Assembly: GCF_033096465.1 (NCBI RefSeq)
Contig: NZ_AP028156.1
Coordinates: 2,560,501-2,624,500 of the forward strand
Origin: Blautia luti
GTDB taxonomy: Bacteria > Bacillota > Clostridia > Lachnospirales > Lachnospiraceae
Length of the DNA stretch: 64,000 bases
Direction of reading: 5' to 3'
Position numbers and translations under genes: made by a program. Below, one piece after another: positions 48,913-56,114 of the stretch. Numbering within the stretch: position 1 is the first letter of the stretch; each line of letters opens with the position of its first letter. The notes under the pieces were generated by a model, which was not told the origin of the DNA, searched no databases, and worked only from the letters and a program-made list of their open reading frames with translations.

Positions 48913-50367
48913 TTATTCCGGTTTATCACCGATCAGCCAGTTATACATCTCTTCATACTGACGTGCGGAATTGTTCCAGGAAAAATCTGCTGCCATAGCA
49001 CGGTCAACCATCTTATTCCATTCACGTTTCTTATCGTAGTAGATCCTCTCTGCATTCCGTACTGTATTGAGCATCTCATGGGCATTGTAGTTGCGGAAGG
49101 AGAATCCTGTACCTGTTCCTTCATATTCATTAAACGGTTCCACTGTATCTTTCAGACCACCTGTTTCACGGACGATCGGAAGAGTTCCGTAACGAAGGCT
49201 CATCAGCTGGCTTAAACCGCATGGCTCGAACAGAGACGGCATAAGGAATGCATCAGAAGCAGCATAAATACGGTGTGACATCGATTCGTCATAATAGATC
49301 TGGGCAGAAACCTTTCCATGGTATTTCCAGTCGAAATGACGGAACATATTCTCATAACGTTCATCACCGGTTCCGAGAACTACGATCTGCACTGCATCTT
49401 GGCAGAGTTCATCCATCACATATGCGATAAGGTCAAAGCCCTTCTGGTCTGTCAGACGTGAAACGATACCGATCATCATTGCCTTCGGATTTTCTTCCAG
49501 TCCCAGATCCTTCTGAAGCTGGATCTTATTTTTTACTTTTTCCTTGCGGAAGGTTGTCGCGTTATAGTTCTTCGTGATATATGGATCAGTCTCCGGATTA
49601 AAGATATTGTAGTCAATACCATTGACAATTCCTCTCAGACTGTTAGCCCGGGCACACATCAGGCCGTCAAGGCGTTCGCCGTAGAACGGTGTCTTGATCT
49701 CCTCTGCATAAGTATTGCTGACAGTTGTCACAGCATCCGCAAATACGATACCTCCCTTAAGGAAATTGGCATCCTTGTAAGCTTCCAGCTTGTCTGAAGT
49801 GAAATAATAATCAGAAAGACCTGTGATATCCTGTACAGTCTTCACATCCCAGACGCCTTGGAATTTCAGGTTATGTATTGTCATGATCGTCTTGATATTC
49901 CAGAAAAATTCATTCTGCTGGAAGCTGTCATGAAGATATACAGGGACAAGTCCTGTCTGCCAGTCATGACAGTGGATCACATCCGGTCTGAATCCGATCA
50001 CCGGAAGTACGGATAATACTGCTTTGGAAAAGAATGCAAATTTCTCCAGATCCCACGGAGCACTGTCATATGGTTTCGGACCACTGAAATAGTATTCATT
50101 GTCAATGAAATAGAACTGAATTCCATCATACTCCATATGCATAATTCCTACATAGCAGTTCTTATATCCCAGATCCATGTAGAAATGTGTGACGTATTCC
50201 ATTTTATCTTTCCATTCCTGTTTCATACAGGCATATTTCGGTAAGATCACACGAATATCGAAATATCTCTTGTCGAAATATTTCGGTAAAGCGCCTGCTA
50301 CATCTGCCAGTCCTCCTGTTTTGATAAACGGAACTGCTTCAGATGTTGCAAATAAAATATTTTTCAT
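48913..50367 (-). CDS. glgA: Glycogen synthase (ADP-glucose type)
   Basis: A 484-residue GT5 enzyme that extends alpha-1,4-glucan from ADP-glucose. N-terminal substrate motif KTGGLADV at 16-23, HDWQTGLVPVYL (~140) and the C-terminal SLFEPCGLSQLMSLRYGTLP (~385) are typical. No other glg genes are adjacent. It lies 53 bases after spo0A on the same strand with a possible own promoter, so glycogen storage may be tied to sporulation entry; that is inference. Confidence 0.96.
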   Translation of the reverse strand: MKNILFATSEAVPFIKTGGLADVAGALPKYFDKRYFDIRVILPKYACMKQEWKDKMEYVTHFYMDLGYKNCYVGIMHMEYDGIQFYFIDNEYYFSGPKPYDSAPWDLEKFAFFSKAVLSVLPVIGFRPDVIHCHDWQTGLVPVYLHDSFQQNEFFWNIKTIMTIHNLKFQGVWDVKTVQDITGLSDYYFTSDKLEAYKDANFLKGGIVFADAVTTVSNTYAEEIKTPFYGERLDGLMCARANSLRGIVNGIDYNIFNPETDPYITKNYNATTFRKEKVKNKIQLQKDLGLEENPKAMMIGIVSRLTDQKGFDLIAYVMDELCQDAVQIVVLGTGDERYENMFRHFDWKYHGKVSAQIYYDESMSHRIYAASDAFLMPSLFEPCGLSQLMSLRYGTLPIVRETGGLKDTVEPFNEYEGTGTGFSFRNYNAHEMLNTVRNAERIYYDKKREWNKMVDRAMAADFSWNNSARQYEEMYNWLIGDKPE

Positions 50368-50401
50368 GCGTAAAACCCTCCTTGGTAGCCTTTATACTAC
50401 A

Positions 50402-50430
50402 ATTATACTCCAAAAAACGCCTATTGGAAA
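50402..50430 (-). promoter_or_regulatory. Possible glgA promoter
   Basis: TTTCCA (50425-50430, overlapping the spo0A end), 17 bases, TATAAT (50402-50407) on the minus strand. Confidence 0.45.
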
Positions 50431-51227
50431 GTGCGATTTTTATATTCCAGTCTGATTTTATCTGCGATCAGTGCAATAAATTCAGAATTCGTAGGCTTAC
50501 CTTTTCCTGTGCTTACCGTATATCCGAAAAGCTCATCGATCGTATCCATCTTTCCTCTGCTCCACGCTACTTCAATGGCATGGCGGATCGCTCTCTCCAC
50601 TCTGCTGGAAGTTGTCTGATGCCGTTTCGCAATGGTGGGATACAGAATCTTCGTAATGGAATTCAGCATTTCCATATCATTTACAGACAGGATAATGGCA
50701 TCTCGCAGATACTGATATCCTTTGATATGTGCCGGAACACCTATCTCATGAATGATGTTCGTTACATCTGTCTCCAGATTTCCCTGGGTCATGGTATTTT
50801 CTTCTTTTACTTCTGTCTGTCTGCTGATCTGTCTGAATTTCCTGTCTCCTAAGCTTCTCACATGCTTGATCCGATTTAACAGCATCCTGTTGTCAAAAGG
50901 TTTCAGCACATAATAATCCGCTCCCAGACTGAATGCATCTTCCGTGATCCTCTCTTTTCCTACAGCGGAAACTACAATAAACGCCGGTATTTTCTTCAAA
51001 CTGCTGTCATGGACAAAACGTTCCATCACTGCCAGGCCGTCCATCTTCGGCATAATAATGTCCAATACCACAACGTCCGGCTCTTTTTCCCTTATAATAT
51101 TACAGATTTCTTCTCCATTATGGGCTTTGCCAACCAGTTCCAGATCCTTATCTTCTTCGATGATCTTTCCAAGTACTTCCACCATTCTCTCATTATCGTC
51201 CGCAACCGCCACATTTAATTTTTCCAT
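50421..51227 (-). CDS. spo0A: Sporulation master regulator Spo0A
   Basis: A 268-residue response regulator. Receiver domain with acidic pair Asp10-Asp11 and phospho-acceptor Asp56 ([13 protein letters not shown]), Lys in YYVLKPFD; then the Spo0A-specific DNA-binding domain from ~155 ([54 protein letters not shown]). It turns on sporulation when phosphorylated. Usual order recN-spoIVB-spo0A is kept but a GGDEF-REC gene is inserted in front. One TGNCGAA site lies at 51394-51400 upstream. Confidence 0.98.
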
Positions 51228-51293
51228 GAGGCCAGCCTCCTCCCTGATCTAAATCCTCTATATTTTTGTTCCTGTTTTTTTGGCACATCACAT

Positions 51294-51323
51294 ATTATAG
51301 AGGAACGATAAGGGAGAAATCAA
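51294..51323 (-). promoter_or_regulatory. Possible spo0A promoter
   Basis: TTGATT, 18 bases, TATAAT on the minus strand (-10 at 51294-51299), about 65 bases before the spo0A ATG. Upstream at about 51357-51379 lies a tandem GCGCTTATCT repeat. Confidence 0.5.
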
Positions 51324-51436
51324 GCCGAATCAGGGAGGTCAGACCCATTTTCCATCGCGCTTATCTGCGCTTATCTGGCTTTTATTTTCATCATTCGCCA
51401 CGAATATATCTTACCGGACAGCAATCGCATTTTTCT

Positions 51437-52765
51437 TTATTTTTTCAGTTCACTTTTGATCTGGTCTGTTACCAGGGCGATCAGTCTTCTCTGTTTCGCA
51501 TAGAGCTTTATGGTGTTAAATACCCGTCTGTATACTACCTGGGCATCGAACGGACGGTTGATATAATCCATGGCTCCCATTTCATAGGCTTTTTTCACAT
51601 AGGTCTCTGATTCCTCACTGGAAATCATGATCACCGGAATATTGTCCAGGAAATTCTTCTCAGACATTACCCGCAGAACCTCGAAACCATCCATCACAGG
51701 CATGATAATATCCAGAAGCACCAGTGAAATATCTTCTTCATGCTCTTCAAGGTATTCCAGGCCTTCTTCTCCGTTGGCAGCTTCTAGGACAGCAAATTCT
51801 TCTCCCAGTACCTCCCTGAGAATGGCACGGTTCATCTCTGAATCATCTATGATCAGGATCTTCGGCCGTAAATCTTCAAAGAATTTCTCTTTTCTGCCTT
51901 CCAGCTTCCCGCCGGTGCTGTTCTCCTCTGTAACGACCATGTTCTTCTTATTTTTCGCCATATACATAAAATGATCTGCACGGCTGATCGCTTCTTCTAT
52001 CGTGTCTCCTTCTGACATTACGCCGCCTATACTGACAGACATCTTCAGTCTGGGATAGCCAGGCACTTTTGCCTCCTGCACCTTCCTGCTGATACTTTTC
52101 AGCTTCCGGGTAAAAATCTCCGGTTCTACATCAGCCATGATCAGGATGAATTCATCCCCTCCGTACCGGATCAGAATATCTGTTTTACGGATACAGCTTC
52201 TGATAACTTCTGCTACCGTACGTAGCACCAGATCTCCCACTTTATGCCCAAGAGTATCATTATATAACTTGAAATCATCCAGATCGATCATTGCAACTCC
52301 TGCAGGAGTTTTCATATTTTTGATCATATTCTCATAGAAATGCCGATTGGATGCACCTGTAAGGGCATCTGTATACAGAGCTTCCTGGTATCCGCTTATT
52401 TTTTTCAGCAGACGGTTTTTGCCCTGAGGATCCAGGATCAGTTCATCGTCCAGGCAGTTGATCATCTCCATGACATACTCTCTGCCGTCAATCTCCATAT
52501 ATTTTGCAATCACCTGGTAAAGTACAGAATCAATAAATTCCATTTTTACTTTTCTGTTCTTTTCCTCCAGTGCACGTATAGATACACAATTCTCGCACGG
52601 ACTGCTTTTCTTCCAGAAATCGTAGCACTGACAGGGGGCTTTTGGCTCCTTGGACGTATAATCTCCATAATGGATCTCTCTTAATGTATCAGCTTCCAGA
52701 AGACGCACTACATCAAATACAGACTCCATATACCGCATGGTTTGCTTTGCTTCCTGCATTGTCAT
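51437..52765 (-). CDS. Diguanylate cyclase with C-terminal receiver domain (GGDEF-REC)
   Basis: A 442-residue signalling protein in three parts. Residues 1-125: a sensor-like domain with four cysteines (Cys45, 47, 57, 60; PCQCYD and PCENC) that may hold a metal. Residues 130-285: a GGDEF domain with intact active site RYGGDEF (202-206) and intact inhibitory I-site RKTD (193-196). Residues 300-430: a receiver with Asp307-Asp308 and phospho-acceptor Asp352 (LLDIIMPVMDG), Lys in INRPFD region replaced by Arg (NRPFD). GGDEF makes c-di-GMP from GTP. A receiver at the C-terminus is uncommon. The gene sits between spoIVB and spo0A and its leader carries a c-di-GMP-I riboswitch. Two in-frame ATGs near 52765 are possible. 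Confidence 0.93.
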   Translation of the reverse strand: MTMQEAKQTMRYMESVFDVVRLLEADTLREIHYGDYTSKEPKAPCQCYDFWKKSSPCENCVSIRALEEKNRKVKMEFIDSVLYQVIAKYMEIDGREYVMEMINCLDDELILDPQGKNRLLKKISGYQEALYTDALTGASNRHFYENMIKNMKTPAGVAMIDLDDFKLYNDTLGHKVGDLVLRTVAEVIRSCIRKTDILIRYGGDEFILIMADVEPEIFTRKLKSISRKVQEAKVPGYPRLKMSVSIGGVMSEGDTIEEAISRADHFMYMAKNKKNMVVTEENSTGGKLEGRKEKFFEDLRPKILIIDDSEMNRAILREVLGEEFAVLEAANGEEGLEYLEEHEEDISLVLLDIIMPVMDGFEVLRVMSEKNFLDNIPVIMISSEESETYVKKAYEMGAMDYINRPFDAQVVYRRVFNTIKLYAKQRRLIALVTDQIKSELKK

Positions 52766-52852
52766 ATTCCTATCATCCTCTATCTGTAAATCCTGCGGCA
52801 GCTTTGCTTCCTGCCCACAGTATTGGTTTATATGTATTTCTTTTTTGCAACG

Positions 52853-52887
52853 AAAAAAAGTATTGTTATAACAATAACAATACTTTT
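52853..52887 (-). terminator. Riboswitch expression platform: intrinsic terminator
   Basis: On the minus strand AAAAGTATTGTTAT pairs with ATAACAATACTTTT and is followed by seven T in total. It lies between the c-di-GMP aptamer and the GGDEF start. A copy of AAGTATTGTAT located before the aptamer (52968-52979) can pair with the right arm, giving a plausible antiterminator. Confidence 0.8.
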
Positions 52888-52892
52888 GATTA

Positions 52893-52979
52893 ACTCCCTG
52901 CAGCTGGCTGTCATTTTACAGACCCTATAGCTTTGCGTCGCAACCTTTCGATTGTTTTGCCATATCTTATACAATACTT
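52893..52979 (-). promoter_or_regulatory. c-di-GMP-I (GEMM) riboswitch
   Basis: The minus strand reads GGCAAAACAATC-GAAA-GGTTG, then CGACGCAAAGCTATAGGGTC, TGTAAAATGACAGCCAGCTG. These match the GEMM-I core: GGCAAAC, a GAAA-tetraloop hairpin (CAATC/GGTTG), GACGCAAAGC, and a second hairpin (GGGTCTGT/ACAGCC) ending in GCCAGCTGC. Basal helix P1 looks short here. Downstream gene makes c-di-GMP, so it is a feedback element. Class call is from memory of the consensus. Confidence 0.85.
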
Positions 52980-53032
52980 CTCATCAGACAATCTGCCGCT
53001 TTTCACACGAAAATCTAACTCATAATATTATT

Positions 53033-53061
53033 ACTATAGCACATACCCGGAGGAAAGTCAA
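53033..53061 (-). promoter_or_regulatory. Promoter of the riboswitch-GGDEF transcript
   Basis: TTGACT (53056-53061), 17 bases, TATAGT (53033-53038) with TGC extension on the minus strand. It starts a leader of about 260 bases. Confidence 0.75.
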
Positions 53062-53085
53062 AAAATATTATCTGCAGTAACGACA

Positions 53086-53113
53086 AAAACGCTGCACGGG
53101 CAGCGTCTTTTTG
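53086..53113. terminator. Terminator of spoIVB
   Basis: AAAAACGCTGC-ACGG-GCAGCGTCTTTTT, directly after the spoIVB stop; on the minus strand GCGTTTTTG follows. It isolates the GGDEF promoter from spoIVB. Confidence 0.88.
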
Positions 53114-53115
53114 TC

Positions 53116-54324
53116 CTATTTCTCATGGTTCAGCATATTTTCTATGAATATCCCATATCCACTGGTGGAATCCTGCACAAACACATGGGTAACTGCGCCA
53201 ACTACTTTTCCATCCTGCAAAATAGGCGACCCGGACATTCCCTGGACCACGCCTCCGGTCAGTTCCAGAAGATTTTCGTCTGTTATCTGGATCACAAAGC
53301 TCTTATTGGTATCTTCATGGTTCAGATCGATCCTTTTGATCTCTGCTGCATATTCCTTTACCTGTCCATCCACACACGCCAGGATCGTGGCATCTCCGGT
53401 GTGCACTTCCTGCTTATGTGCTGCCGGCATTTTTCTCAGAGAAATACTGTTTTCTTCATTTGTATAAAGCTGTCCGTAAATGCCGTTTTTGTTATTTTCT
53501 GTAATAGTCCCCAGAAGATTTCTTTCCTCGTAACGGATCAGTCCTGCCAGTTCCCCCGGATTTCCTTTGCTGCCTTTATTCACTGCCAGAACCTGTGCTT
53601 TATACAAAGCACCTCCTGATATTTCCAGAAGATCTGCTGTATCAATATCACTGATCCCATGCCCCAGTGCACCGTAGCTGCCGTTCCCATTCACATAGGT
53701 CAGCGTTCCGATCCCCTGGGTGTCATCTCTTACCCACAGTCCAAGTTTGTAGCTGCCGGAGGCATCTTTGGCAGGTGTGACAGAAACAGGCAGCGTCTCA
53801 CCATCTCTGTTGACTTTCAGCGTAACTGCTTCTCCATTCATGTTTTCCAGATCCCTGATCAGTTCTTTTTTGTCTGTAACCTTCTGATCATTAAATGCTA
53901 CAATATAATCTCCCGGACGGACAATATTTCTGGATGGCTCTTTCGTTTCACCATCTTCAGCCTGTATCTCTCCTGTATCAATAACCAGTACACCCTTTGT
54001 TTCCATATAGATCCCTATGGTATTTCCACTGACATACACTTCCCTGTCATCCACAGGGGTTACTTTTACTTCTTTGAAAGGCAGATATCCAAGAAGTCTG
54101 CAGGGCAGTACATACCCTCCGTCACCTGAAACAGGCACAGCCTCATCAAAGGTTACAAAAGGATTGGAAAGGAGCTCTGACACATCTGTACTGTTTTGTC
54201 TTGAAACCTGGATCTCATCCGGTATTTTACGGTTGAGATACTGATATCCCAGAAATGCCATTACAAGGAGATCAAGAACCAGGAAACACATCAGAAACAG
54301 CCGGTATTTTTTTCTTCTGTTCAT
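53116..54324 (-). CDS. spoIVB: SpoIVB serine peptidase
   Basis: A 402-residue S55-family protease. One N-terminal membrane anchor (~8-28), a PDZ domain (~105-190; RNIVRPGDYIVAFNDQKV) and a SpoIVB catalytic domain with His in YGALGHGISD (~230) and Ser in GMSGSPI (~364). In Bacillus it signals across the forespore membranes to activate sigma-K processing by SpoIVFB. Upstream recN, downstream (after a GGDEF insert) spo0A: the classic arrangement. Confidence 0.95.
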   Translation of the reverse strand: MNRRKKYRLFLMCFLVLDLLVMAFLGYQYLNRKIPDEIQVSRQNSTDVSELLSNPFVTFDEAVPVSGDGGYVLPCRLLGYLPFKEVKVTPVDDREVYVSGNTIGIYMETKGVLVIDTGEIQAEDGETKEPSRNIVRPGDYIVAFNDQKVTDKKELIRDLENMNGEAVTLKVNRDGETLPVSVTPAKDASGSYKLGLWVRDDTQGIGTLTYVNGNGSYGALGHGISDIDTADLLEISGGALYKAQVLAVNKGSKGNPGELAGLIRYEERNLLGTITENNKNGIYGQLYTNEENSISLRKMPAAHKQEVHTGDATILACVDGQVKEYAAEIKRIDLNHEDTNKSFVIQITDENLLELTGGVVQGMSGSPILQDGKVVGAVTHVFVQDSTSGYGIFIENMLNHEK

Positions 54325-54370
54325 TTCTGCACATCCTTTCAGGTATAATCTTTCAGGTATGATCAGAAAA

Positions 54371-54404
54371 AAGAGAGGATTCTCTTTTCAGATGATCCTC
54401 TCTT
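54371..54404 (-). terminator. Terminator after recN
   Basis: AAGAGAGGAT pairs with ATCCTCTCTT; on the minus strand TTTTTTCTG follows. It separates recN from spoIVB transcripts. Confidence 0.8.
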
Positions 54405-54422
54405 AGTATGCGGTCAAATATT

Positions 54423-56114
54423 TTATTTCAATCTTGTATTTTTTTGTTTCTGTGCCAATTCTTTCATTTCTTTTGCATTTTCCAGAACAGCCGGTGTGAT
54501 CTCTGTTCCGCTGAGAAGCCTTGCCAGTTCACGGACAGAATCTTCTTCAGAAAGTACATGGATCTGGGTAATGGTTTCTGTACCTTTCAGATGCTTTTCA
54601 ATCTCGAAATGACTGTCTGCCATAGCTGCGATCTGAGGCAGATGTGTAATGCAAAGTACCTGGTGATGCTGTCCGATCACAGCCATTTTCTCTGATACTT
54701 TCTGTGCAGTTCTTCCGCTGATACCTGTGTCGATCTCGTCGAAGATCAGTGTTTCGATCTGGTCTCTGTCTGCCAGAATTGCTTTCAGCGCAAGCATGAT
54801 CCTGGAAAGTTCACCGCCGGATACGATCTGACCTAACGGTTTCAGGCTCTCTCCCGGATTGGTGGAGATCAGATAACCGATGTCATCAAAGCCATTGTCT
54901 GTATAATTTTTCTTTCTCTGGAAATCAATGGCAAAATTTACATCAAGAAAATTTAGATCTTTCAGTCCCTGAATCACTTTCTGCTCAAGCTGGCTGCTAT
55001 ATTCTCTGCGGATCCTGGACAGTTTATCCGAATTTTCAAAGAGAATTTTTTCCAGTTTTGCAAGACGGTCTTTCATTTCCTGTAAATTTTCTTCAAATCT
55101 GCGAAGTTTTTCCAGTTTTTCTTTCTGCTGGCTGCAGTATGCACCGATTTCTTCAATGGTACGTCCATATTTCGCCTTCAGCCCATTGATAAGATCCAAT
55201 CTTCTCTCTGTCTCATAGAATTCCCCTTCATCGAAGGTAAGGTCTTCCAGATAAGCAGAAAGTTCCCTGTTAAAGTCATTCAGCAGACCATCCACGGAAG
55301 TCAATGTCTCTTCTAACGGTGCAAGCCCCTCATCAAACTGGGTCACACGGACCAGTTCCCTTATGGCTTCTCCCACTGTTTCTCCTGCTCCTTCTGTAGT
55401 GTCATAACCTGTCAGTTTATGTACCAGCAGCAGAGAATCTGTCAGCTGCTTTGCATTGTTCATTTTGCGGTAACGGCACTCCAGCTCTTCGTCTTCTCCC
55501 GGCTGCAGGGCTGCTTTCTCTATTTCTTTGATCTCGAACTCCAGAAACGCAGCTTCTCTGTTTCTCTGTTCCTCATTTATATCCATGGAATCCAGTTCGT
55601 TTCTGCAGACACTGTATTCTTTATACGCCTGGCGGACTTTTTCCTTCGCAGGAAGAATCTTCTCTCTCCCGTATGCATCCAATATCTCAAGCTGCTTATC
55701 CTGATACAGCAGTGACTGATGTTCATGCTGTCCGTGAATGTCCAGCAGACAAGCTGCTGCTGCCTTCATCTGGCTTACAGTACTGGTTTCTCCATTGATC
55801 TTATTGATACTCCTTCCGTCCATGATCTTTCTGGACAAAAGCACCTGCCCGTCCTCCGGATAAAAGTCCATGGCAGCAAGGGCTTCCCTGGCTTTCTCAT
55901 TCTCTACCTGAAAAAGCAGTTCCACCAAAGCATAAGGAGCATTTTCTCTTATTATGTTTCTGGAAATCTTGGCTCCCAGGATCAGCTGCATGGAACCCAG
56001 AAGAATGGATTTACCTGCACCGGTCTCACCTGTAAGGATATTAAGTCCCGGTCCGAATTCCACCTCGATCTCTTCTATCAGTGCAAGATTTTTTACATGG
56101 AGATGTGCTAACAT
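54423..56114 (-). CDS. recN: DNA repair ATPase RecN
   Basis: A 563-residue SMC-like protein. Walker A GETGAGKS at 29-36, long coiled coils (~150-340), ABC signature VSGGELSRIMLALKA (~430) and Walker B LIFDEIDTGISG (~465). RecN gathers broken DNA ends. It follows argR in the same transcript unit, with a 57-base gap that holds a GC-rich hairpin. Confidence 0.97.
   Translation of the reverse strand: MLAHLHVKNLALIEEIEVEFGPGLNILTGETGAGKSILLGSMQLILGAKISRNIIRENAPYALVELLFQVENEKAREALAAMDFYPEDGQVLLSRKIMDGRSINKINGETSTVSQMKAAAACLLDIHGQHEHQSLLYQDKQLEILDAYGREKILPAKEKVRQAYKEYSVCRNELDSMDINEEQRNREAAFLEFEIKEIEKAALQPGEDEELECRYRKMNNAKQLTDSLLLVHKLTGYDTTEGAGETVGEAIRELVRVTQFDEGLAPLEETLTSVDGLLNDFNRELSAYLEDLTFDEGEFYETERRLDLINGLKAKYGRTIEEIGAYCSQQKEKLEKLRRFEENLQEMKDRLAKLEKILFENSDKLSRIRREYSSQLEQKVIQGLKDLNFLDVNFAIDFQRKKNYTDNGFDDIGYLISTNPGESLKPLGQIVSGGELSRIMLALKAILADRDQIETLIFDEIDTGISGRTAQKVSEKMAVIGQHHQVLCITHLPQIAAMADSHFEIEKHLKGTETITQIHVLSEEDSVRELARLLSGTEITPAVLENAKEMKELAQKQKNTRLK

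Follow-up and report, generated by a model that had tools for sequence, protein, structure and literature searches.

We identified a class I cyclic di-GMP (c-di-GMP) riboswitch ahead of a predicted diguanylate cyclase gene on the minus strand of a 64,000-nucleotide stretch of the Blautia luti contig NZ_AP028156.1 (hereafter the window, in whose numbering all positions are given). Fold modelling suggests that it probably acts as a transcriptional OFF switch, which would place the cyclase under negative feedback. While the sensor class is known, what stands out is the uncommon feedback target, the loss of the phosphodiesterase half of the enzyme and the place of the locus beside the sporulation master gene. 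The elements of the leader and the gene that follows are:

53033..53061, minus strand: promoter-like site TTGACT-17-TATAGT with an extended -10 (TG before the -10), from a pattern scan and the sequence.
52969..52979, minus strand: pre-aptamer repeat AAGTATTGTAT, a near-copy of part of the terminator left arm and the predicted antiterminator partner of the right arm; absent in the related genome G022.
52896..52971, minus strand: c-di-GMP-I (GEMM-I) aptamer (RF01051, 58.6 bits, cut-off 35), with GGC core, GAAA loop and GACGCAAAGC.
52941..52954, minus strand: P2 hairpin CAATC-GAAA-GGTTG of the aptamer, whose 5' strand belongs to the sequence with which the terminator left arm is predicted to pair.
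52874..52887, minus strand: terminator left arm AAAAGTATTGTTAT, letter for letter the same in G022.
52853..52869, minus strand: terminator right arm ATAACAATACTTTT and T run, the right arm letter for letter the same in G022.
51437..52765, minus strand: predicted diguanylate cyclase of 442 amino acids (N-terminal domain without Pfam match, GGDEF, receiver), with RKTD I-site and RYGGDEF motif; the HD-GYP domain of its relatives is missing.

The aptamer matches the Rfam covariance model over its complete length (model positions 1-87, E 6.7e-9) and is the sole Rfam match at gathering level in the window. An earlier annotation made from the letters alone (the sequence-only reading) had placed a GEMM-I core here and proposed a covariance-model search as its check; that search returned a significant match, in the expected place. 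P2 carries its GNRA cap, and P1 is weak, as that reading had also said. We surveyed 64 genomes of the genus and fetched all 108 listed c-di-GMP-I matches, which come from 39 of the genomes. The P2 hairpin pattern fits 99 of the 108; with the pairs numbered outward from the loop, all 99 have a standard pair at positions 3 and 5, against one failure each at pairs 1 and 4, 12 at pair 2 and 10 at pair 6. Several pair types occur at each P2 position, hence the pairing is kept while the sequence varies. At the position that we take to be nucleotide 20, the window aptamer has a G, as c-di-GMP binders do; across the genus this nucleotide is G in 99 matches, A in 8 and unread in 1. The letter A marks cyclic GMP-AMP-type GEMM-Ib riboswitches elsewhere, and G the c-di-GMP binders (PMC6456294). 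The eight matches with A are L172, L178, L183, L184, L196, L226, L239 and L244. On its sequence, then, the window element is a class I c-di-GMP riboswitch, which would bind c-di-GMP.

Downstream of the aptamer lies the hairpin AAAAGTATTGTTAT-TGTT-ATAACAATACTTTT (52887-52856, minus strand), with a 14-base-pair stem, a 4-base loop and a T run at 52859-52853, so the hairpin that the sequence-only reading saw ahead of the coding region is there. Our pattern scan for terminators does not list it, because the scan demands at least 3 G-C pairs and the stem has 2. The same reading called the promoter clear. A site is indeed present at 53061-53033, from which we estimate a transcription start near 53026, but 14 promoter-like sites occur in 50300-54500 against 9.9 (standard deviation 2.9) in shuffles, so that taken by itself the promoter counts for little. 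Nor does the leader as a whole stand out in stability, as 13/200 shuffles fold as well. The repeat before the aptamer was also read correctly: AAGTATTGTAT at 52979-52969 is a near-copy of part of the left arm; shuffles reach the same 8-letter word common to the left arm and the 55 bases before the aptamer in 509/20000 cases, which is suggestive and modest evidence, not decisive.

Two competing pairings can be traced in the leader, and from them we propose the following mechanism. When no ligand is present, the left arm, once transcribed, would pair with the aptamer 5' strand GGCAAAACAAUC, which comprises the conserved GGC core and a P2 strand; the pre-aptamer repeat would then capture the right arm, no terminator would form in time and the gene would be transcribed. 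With c-di-GMP bound, the aptamer would hold its own 5' strand, leaving the left arm free to form the 14-base-pair hairpin, and transcription would halt about 90 bases before the start codon. The sequence-only reading had let the pre-aptamer element alone replace the left arm. This switch element holds up (without it the final antiterminator is lost in the model, in RNA starting 3 nucleotides before the aptamer) but it is only half of the predicted antiterminator, since the pairing of the left arm with GGCAAAACAAUC is needed too; the repeat as the whole antiterminator is thus incomplete.

Support for this scheme comes from a secondary-structure model that works without tertiary contacts, ligand or kinetics, and from an inferred start site. 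In prefix folds from the predicted start, P2 drops in probability from 0.65 to 0.00 when the left arm is made, and pairing between aptamer strand and left arm reaches 0.96 with the right arm still untranscribed; once made, the right arm pairs with the pre-aptamer repeat at 0.6 to 0.7. Shuffled left arms match the pairing with the aptamer in 8/300 cases and open P2 as far in 6/300. P2 opens at that length from each of the six starts tried, which lie 47 to 60 nucleotides upstream of the aptamer. When the Rfam aptamer structure is enforced through its 16 standard pairs, the terminator has a probability of 0.92, against 0.03 in the free RNA. Starts 47, 50, 53, 55 and 57 nucleotides upstream behave alike in RNA ending 35 bases past the left-arm start, where the T run is complete (0.02-0.05 free, 0.92-0.95 with the aptamer enforced); for starts at 50-55 nucleotides the free value is 0.02-0.04. 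The aptamer therefore promotes the terminator in the model for 5/6 starts at this decision length, a contrast that the sixth start and longer RNAs do not show. The sequence-only reading had left the ON or OFF sense open; within these limits of start and 3' end, the folds point to OFF.

Several results weigh against this interpretation. With the start 60 nucleotides upstream and the same 3' end, the terminator stands at 0.80 in the free RNA and 0.97 with the aptamer enforced, and around the decision length the free value stays at 0.80-0.92. In RNAs reaching at least 44 bases past the left-arm start (at least 9 beyond the T run), the free fold returns to the terminator from every start (at least 0.67; 0.67-0.94 for starts at 47-57 nucleotides), and the centroid of the longer leader RNA agrees. 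The predicted antiterminator is therefore transient at best. No antiterminator appeared in a prefix run begun 90 nucleotides upstream, which took in untranscribed promoter DNA. Relative to the antiterminator, the aptamer costs 7 to 9 kcal/mol, which ligand and tertiary contacts would have to pay. The OFF prediction is thus fragile, depending as it does on the start site and the 3' end.

The genus survey gives a mixed answer on whether such pairing is general. Pairing between left arm and aptamer is reached by at most 6/60 shuffles at 27 of the 60 loci with a detected terminator, where about 7 would be expected, and the remaining 33/60 show no such excess, a further point against the mechanism. 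Several of the 60 loci are near relatives and not independent. The terminator search, which left these 60 of the 108 loci for the pairing test, often shortens the left arm (for the window to 9/14 bases in the genus test; the window test used the full arm), and it did not find the L220 hairpin, which we added manually. L147, L161 and L251 (N) were dropped before the terminator and gene counts, and L165 is truncated by a contig end.

Could the same riboswitch be an ON switch, with c-di-GMP favouring read-through and so raising cyclase expression in a positive feedback loop? There are class I ON switches, for example Bc2 of B. thuringiensis (PMC6366702), a precedent that counts against an OFF sense here, and in one model the two folds of the window leader lie close in energy (-37.2 versus -36.4 kcal/mol). 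On the other hand, enforcing the aptamer gives a terminator of at least 0.92 at every length and start tried; the aptamer 3' end does not overlap the terminator arms, and we saw no pairing by which the bound aptamer could block the terminator. We regard an ON sense as quite unlikely.

The locus also occurs in G022, the only other genome found with this arrangement, whose cyclase is 66% identical to that of the window. Its leader keeps the aptamer and, letter for letter, both hairpin arms. It lacks the pre-aptamer repeat, however, with at most 5 letters common to the left arm, and its terminator is predicted at 0.94-0.97 with and without the aptamer enforced. Conservation consequently leaves the mechanism unconfirmed, again to the detriment of the proposed switch, and the model applies to the window sequence only. 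Between spoIVB and the riboswitch of G022 (L087:3057-3472) there are short receiver-like and HD-GYP-like fragments in different frames, which by eye look like a decayed second copy of the gene.

These features raise the possibility of a relic or weak switch, whose aptamer may still bind although most transcripts end at the hairpin in any case, leaving little regulation. Termination irrespective of the aptamer is predicted for the G022 leader and also for the window leader if transcription starts 60 nucleotides upstream; the locus is in flux, given the HD-GYP deletion in the window and the apparent decayed copy in G022, and some C. difficile c-di-GMP riboswitches are non-functional (PMC6366702). 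Yet two species with 66% identical cyclases both retain the aptamer and the terminator arms, the gene downstream has intact catalytic and I-site motifs, and from 5/6 starts a strong switch is predicted at the decision length. We regard a relic as unlikely.

The gene behind the riboswitch is expected to encode a diguanylate cyclase with intact GGDEF, active-site N-D and I-site motifs. Pfam finds a GGDEF domain (PF00990, 122.8 bits) and a receiver domain (89.2 bits). Among named organisms, the protein has its nearest relatives in Lachnospiraceae. Among seven aligned proteins, the window cyclase and six relatives 51 to 66% identical to it, the residues G201, G202, D203, E204 and F205, R192, K193 and D195, and N168 and D169 are invariant (numbered without the start Met); we take these to be the GGDEF motif, the R-K-x-D of the I-site and the N-D of the active site. 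At the curated cut-off, Pfam has no match to roughly the first 120 residues (52406-52765). Cysteines 56 and 59 of this N-terminus (numbered likewise) are kept in 7/7 aligned proteins, and the domain could possibly be a metal or redox sensor. The riboswitch class, terminator platform and cyclase target of the sequence-only reading are all borne out; that the gene is an HD-GYP-less derivative, and that it sits between spoIVB and spo0A, were not part of it.

The family proteins combine GGDEF, receiver and HD-GYP domains. Both HD-GYP motifs are encoded at 24 of the 26 loci examined and are missing in the window and in L279 (L007 and L271 look like one species, L010 and L011 are partial relatives only and L008 is without a GGDEF motif). 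Similarity to G022 stops at about 51461, near the end of the receiver domain, and resumes at 51432, about 45 bases before the end of the G022 HD-GYP gene, so that roughly 645 bases are missing and 51432-51461 marks the deletion scar. From the other loci we infer a loss in the window rather than a gain elsewhere; as a result, the riboswitch now precedes an enzyme expected only to make c-di-GMP. No c-di-GMP-I match was present in the examined flanks at 24/26 of these loci. Just upstream of one relative, in G311, lies a Clostridiales-1 small RNA (L267:1219-1391; RF01699, 139 bits).

Within the genus, 6/108 c-di-GMP-I matches precede a Pfam-confirmed GGDEF gene (L220, L221, L224, L225, L237 and L241), the downstream gene being, as a crude choice, the longest frame starting within 900 bases. 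At a seventh candidate, L196, the motif had turned up by chance in an M60 peptidase. The window genome has five c-di-GMP-I matches; the other four (L185, L238, L247 and L166) are followed by a PAS histidine kinase, a stretch containing a signal peptidase gene, a solute-binding protein and a stretch made up largely of N. We also considered the 131-base leader piece as a mobile unit and found no support for this, as its matches, in 76/397 family genomes (its own included), nearly always fall in the aptamer part. Besides the window, the terminator part is reached by only two matches, both weak and partial (G163, G223); scoring was limited to two candidates per genome, and G022 was not among the matches listed.

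The riboswitch-cyclase locus lies between spoIVB upstream and spo0A downstream:

53116..54324, minus strand: spoIVB (TIGR02860, 366 bits, cut-off 305).
51228..51432, minus strand: stretch resembling the last codons of the G022 HD-GYP gene and the spo0A promoter region behind them (71% over 205 columns, E 2e-24), where the HD-GYP deletion has its far edge.
50421..51227, minus strand: spo0A (TIGR02875, 349 bits, cut-off 200).

A riboswitch beside spo0A occurs in 2 of the 48 genus genomes with a Spo0A match (E 1e-60), the window and G022, which does not support it as a conserved feature; adjacency was judged by eye from contig and coordinates, and contig ends could hide cases. In 12 regions fetched from the 46 other genomes, SpoIVB was upstream of spo0A in 10, and the cyclase (E 1e-10) in none.

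Might spo0A itself be the real target, fed by riboswitch read-through and so tying c-di-GMP to sporulation? It is the next gene downstream, with no minus-strand terminator listed in the 209 bases between, by a scan that also misses the riboswitch terminator, and in C. difficile c-di-GMP is reported to inhibit early sporulation through a pathway not identified there (PMC8653836). Against this, spo0A has a promoter-like site of its own (TTGATT-18-TATAAT, pattern scan), TATAAT also occurs in the upstream stretches of 12/13 relatives' spo0A, and only those two of the 48 genomes have the arrangement. Moreover, in the fold model the spo0A ribosome site is closed in read-through RNA (open 0.00) and open in RNA from its own promoter (0.71), the read-through fold at spo0A (-44.1 kcal/mol, z -3.77) being equalled by 0/200 shuffles. 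The same tendency appears in G022 (0.02 in read-through versus 0.18), L254 (0.01 versus 0.38) and L257 (0.01 versus 0.93). Of the remaining 10 of the 14 compared, read-through makes the site clearly less open in L258, L259, L260, L262 and L264, slightly less open in L261 and L263, and more open in L255, L256 and L265. Given the separate promoter-like site and the ribosome site predicted closed, direct control of Spo0A by read-through is unlikely, and spo0A as the real target seems to us very improbable. A link between c-di-GMP and Spo0A, if any, would run through c-di-GMP itself. Within the promoter-overlapping fold sits a perfect 10-nucleotide inverted repeat (51239-51248 / 51329-51338) joining the spo0A ribosome site to a stretch upstream of the spo0A promoter.

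In C. difficile, the seven functional class I switches turn genes off by termination (PMC6366702), which we count in favour of an OFF sense here. Premature termination with excess c-di-GMP is also reported for Cdi1_9 and Cdi1_12, while a figure legend in that paper words flgB as positively regulated (PMC3649979). The closest worked-out case is Cd1, ahead of flgB in Clostridioides difficile: a class I OFF switch in which no P1 was detected, whose antiterminator forms from an aptamer strand and a switching strand, and whose transiently stable antiterminator structures later refold to the terminator (PMC9262584). Window and Cd1 share a class I aptamer with a downstream terminator and a switching strand (T in Cd1) that pairs with an aptamer strand, and the P1 that goes undetected in Cd1 is weak here (PMC9262584). 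They differ in that Cd1 is described with an A (aptamer-stabilising) strand, whereas the window is predicted to use the 5' strand including the GGC core, and the pre-aptamer repeat for the right arm; furthermore, Cd1 targets flagellar genes and the window switch a cyclase. Riboswitches for c-di-GMP are said rarely to control c-di-GMP enzymes (PMC6366702), and many GEMM genes are said to concern c-di-GMP production, degradation or signalling (PMC7266159). The window switch resembles other c-di-GMP-I switches of turnover genes in offering product or pathway feedback (PMC7266159). In this genus, 6/108 matches are such GGDEF cases. Among the open-licence papers listed in searches for the combination with spo0A, with Lachnospiraceae or with GGDEF feedback, which were listed in part, none describes this locus in its title or the start of its abstract.

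Taken together, one could picture a self-limiting c-di-GMP source in the spoIVB-spo0A locus: a bifunctional GGDEF-receiver-HD-GYP enzyme would have lost its phosphodiesterase half, signal removal would have been replaced by feedback at the RNA level and at the I-site, the antiterminator would invade the aptamer 5' strand and a promoter-overlapping structure would keep read-through RNA from Spo0A translation. As a whole this picture is doubtful; if true, c-di-GMP would come as a bounded pulse linked to the sporulation decision. A likely OFF switch before an intact cyclase gene would in itself be a clean case in which a signal, besides acting at the I-site, restrains its own production through RNA, and noteworthy because c-di-GMP riboswitches are said to control such enzymes so rarely (PMC6366702). 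Because it lies next to spo0A, the effect of c-di-GMP on sporulation (PMC8653836) can readily be studied in another lineage, and the copy under riboswitch control, having lost its HD-GYP half, offers a small natural experiment in the evolution of feedback.
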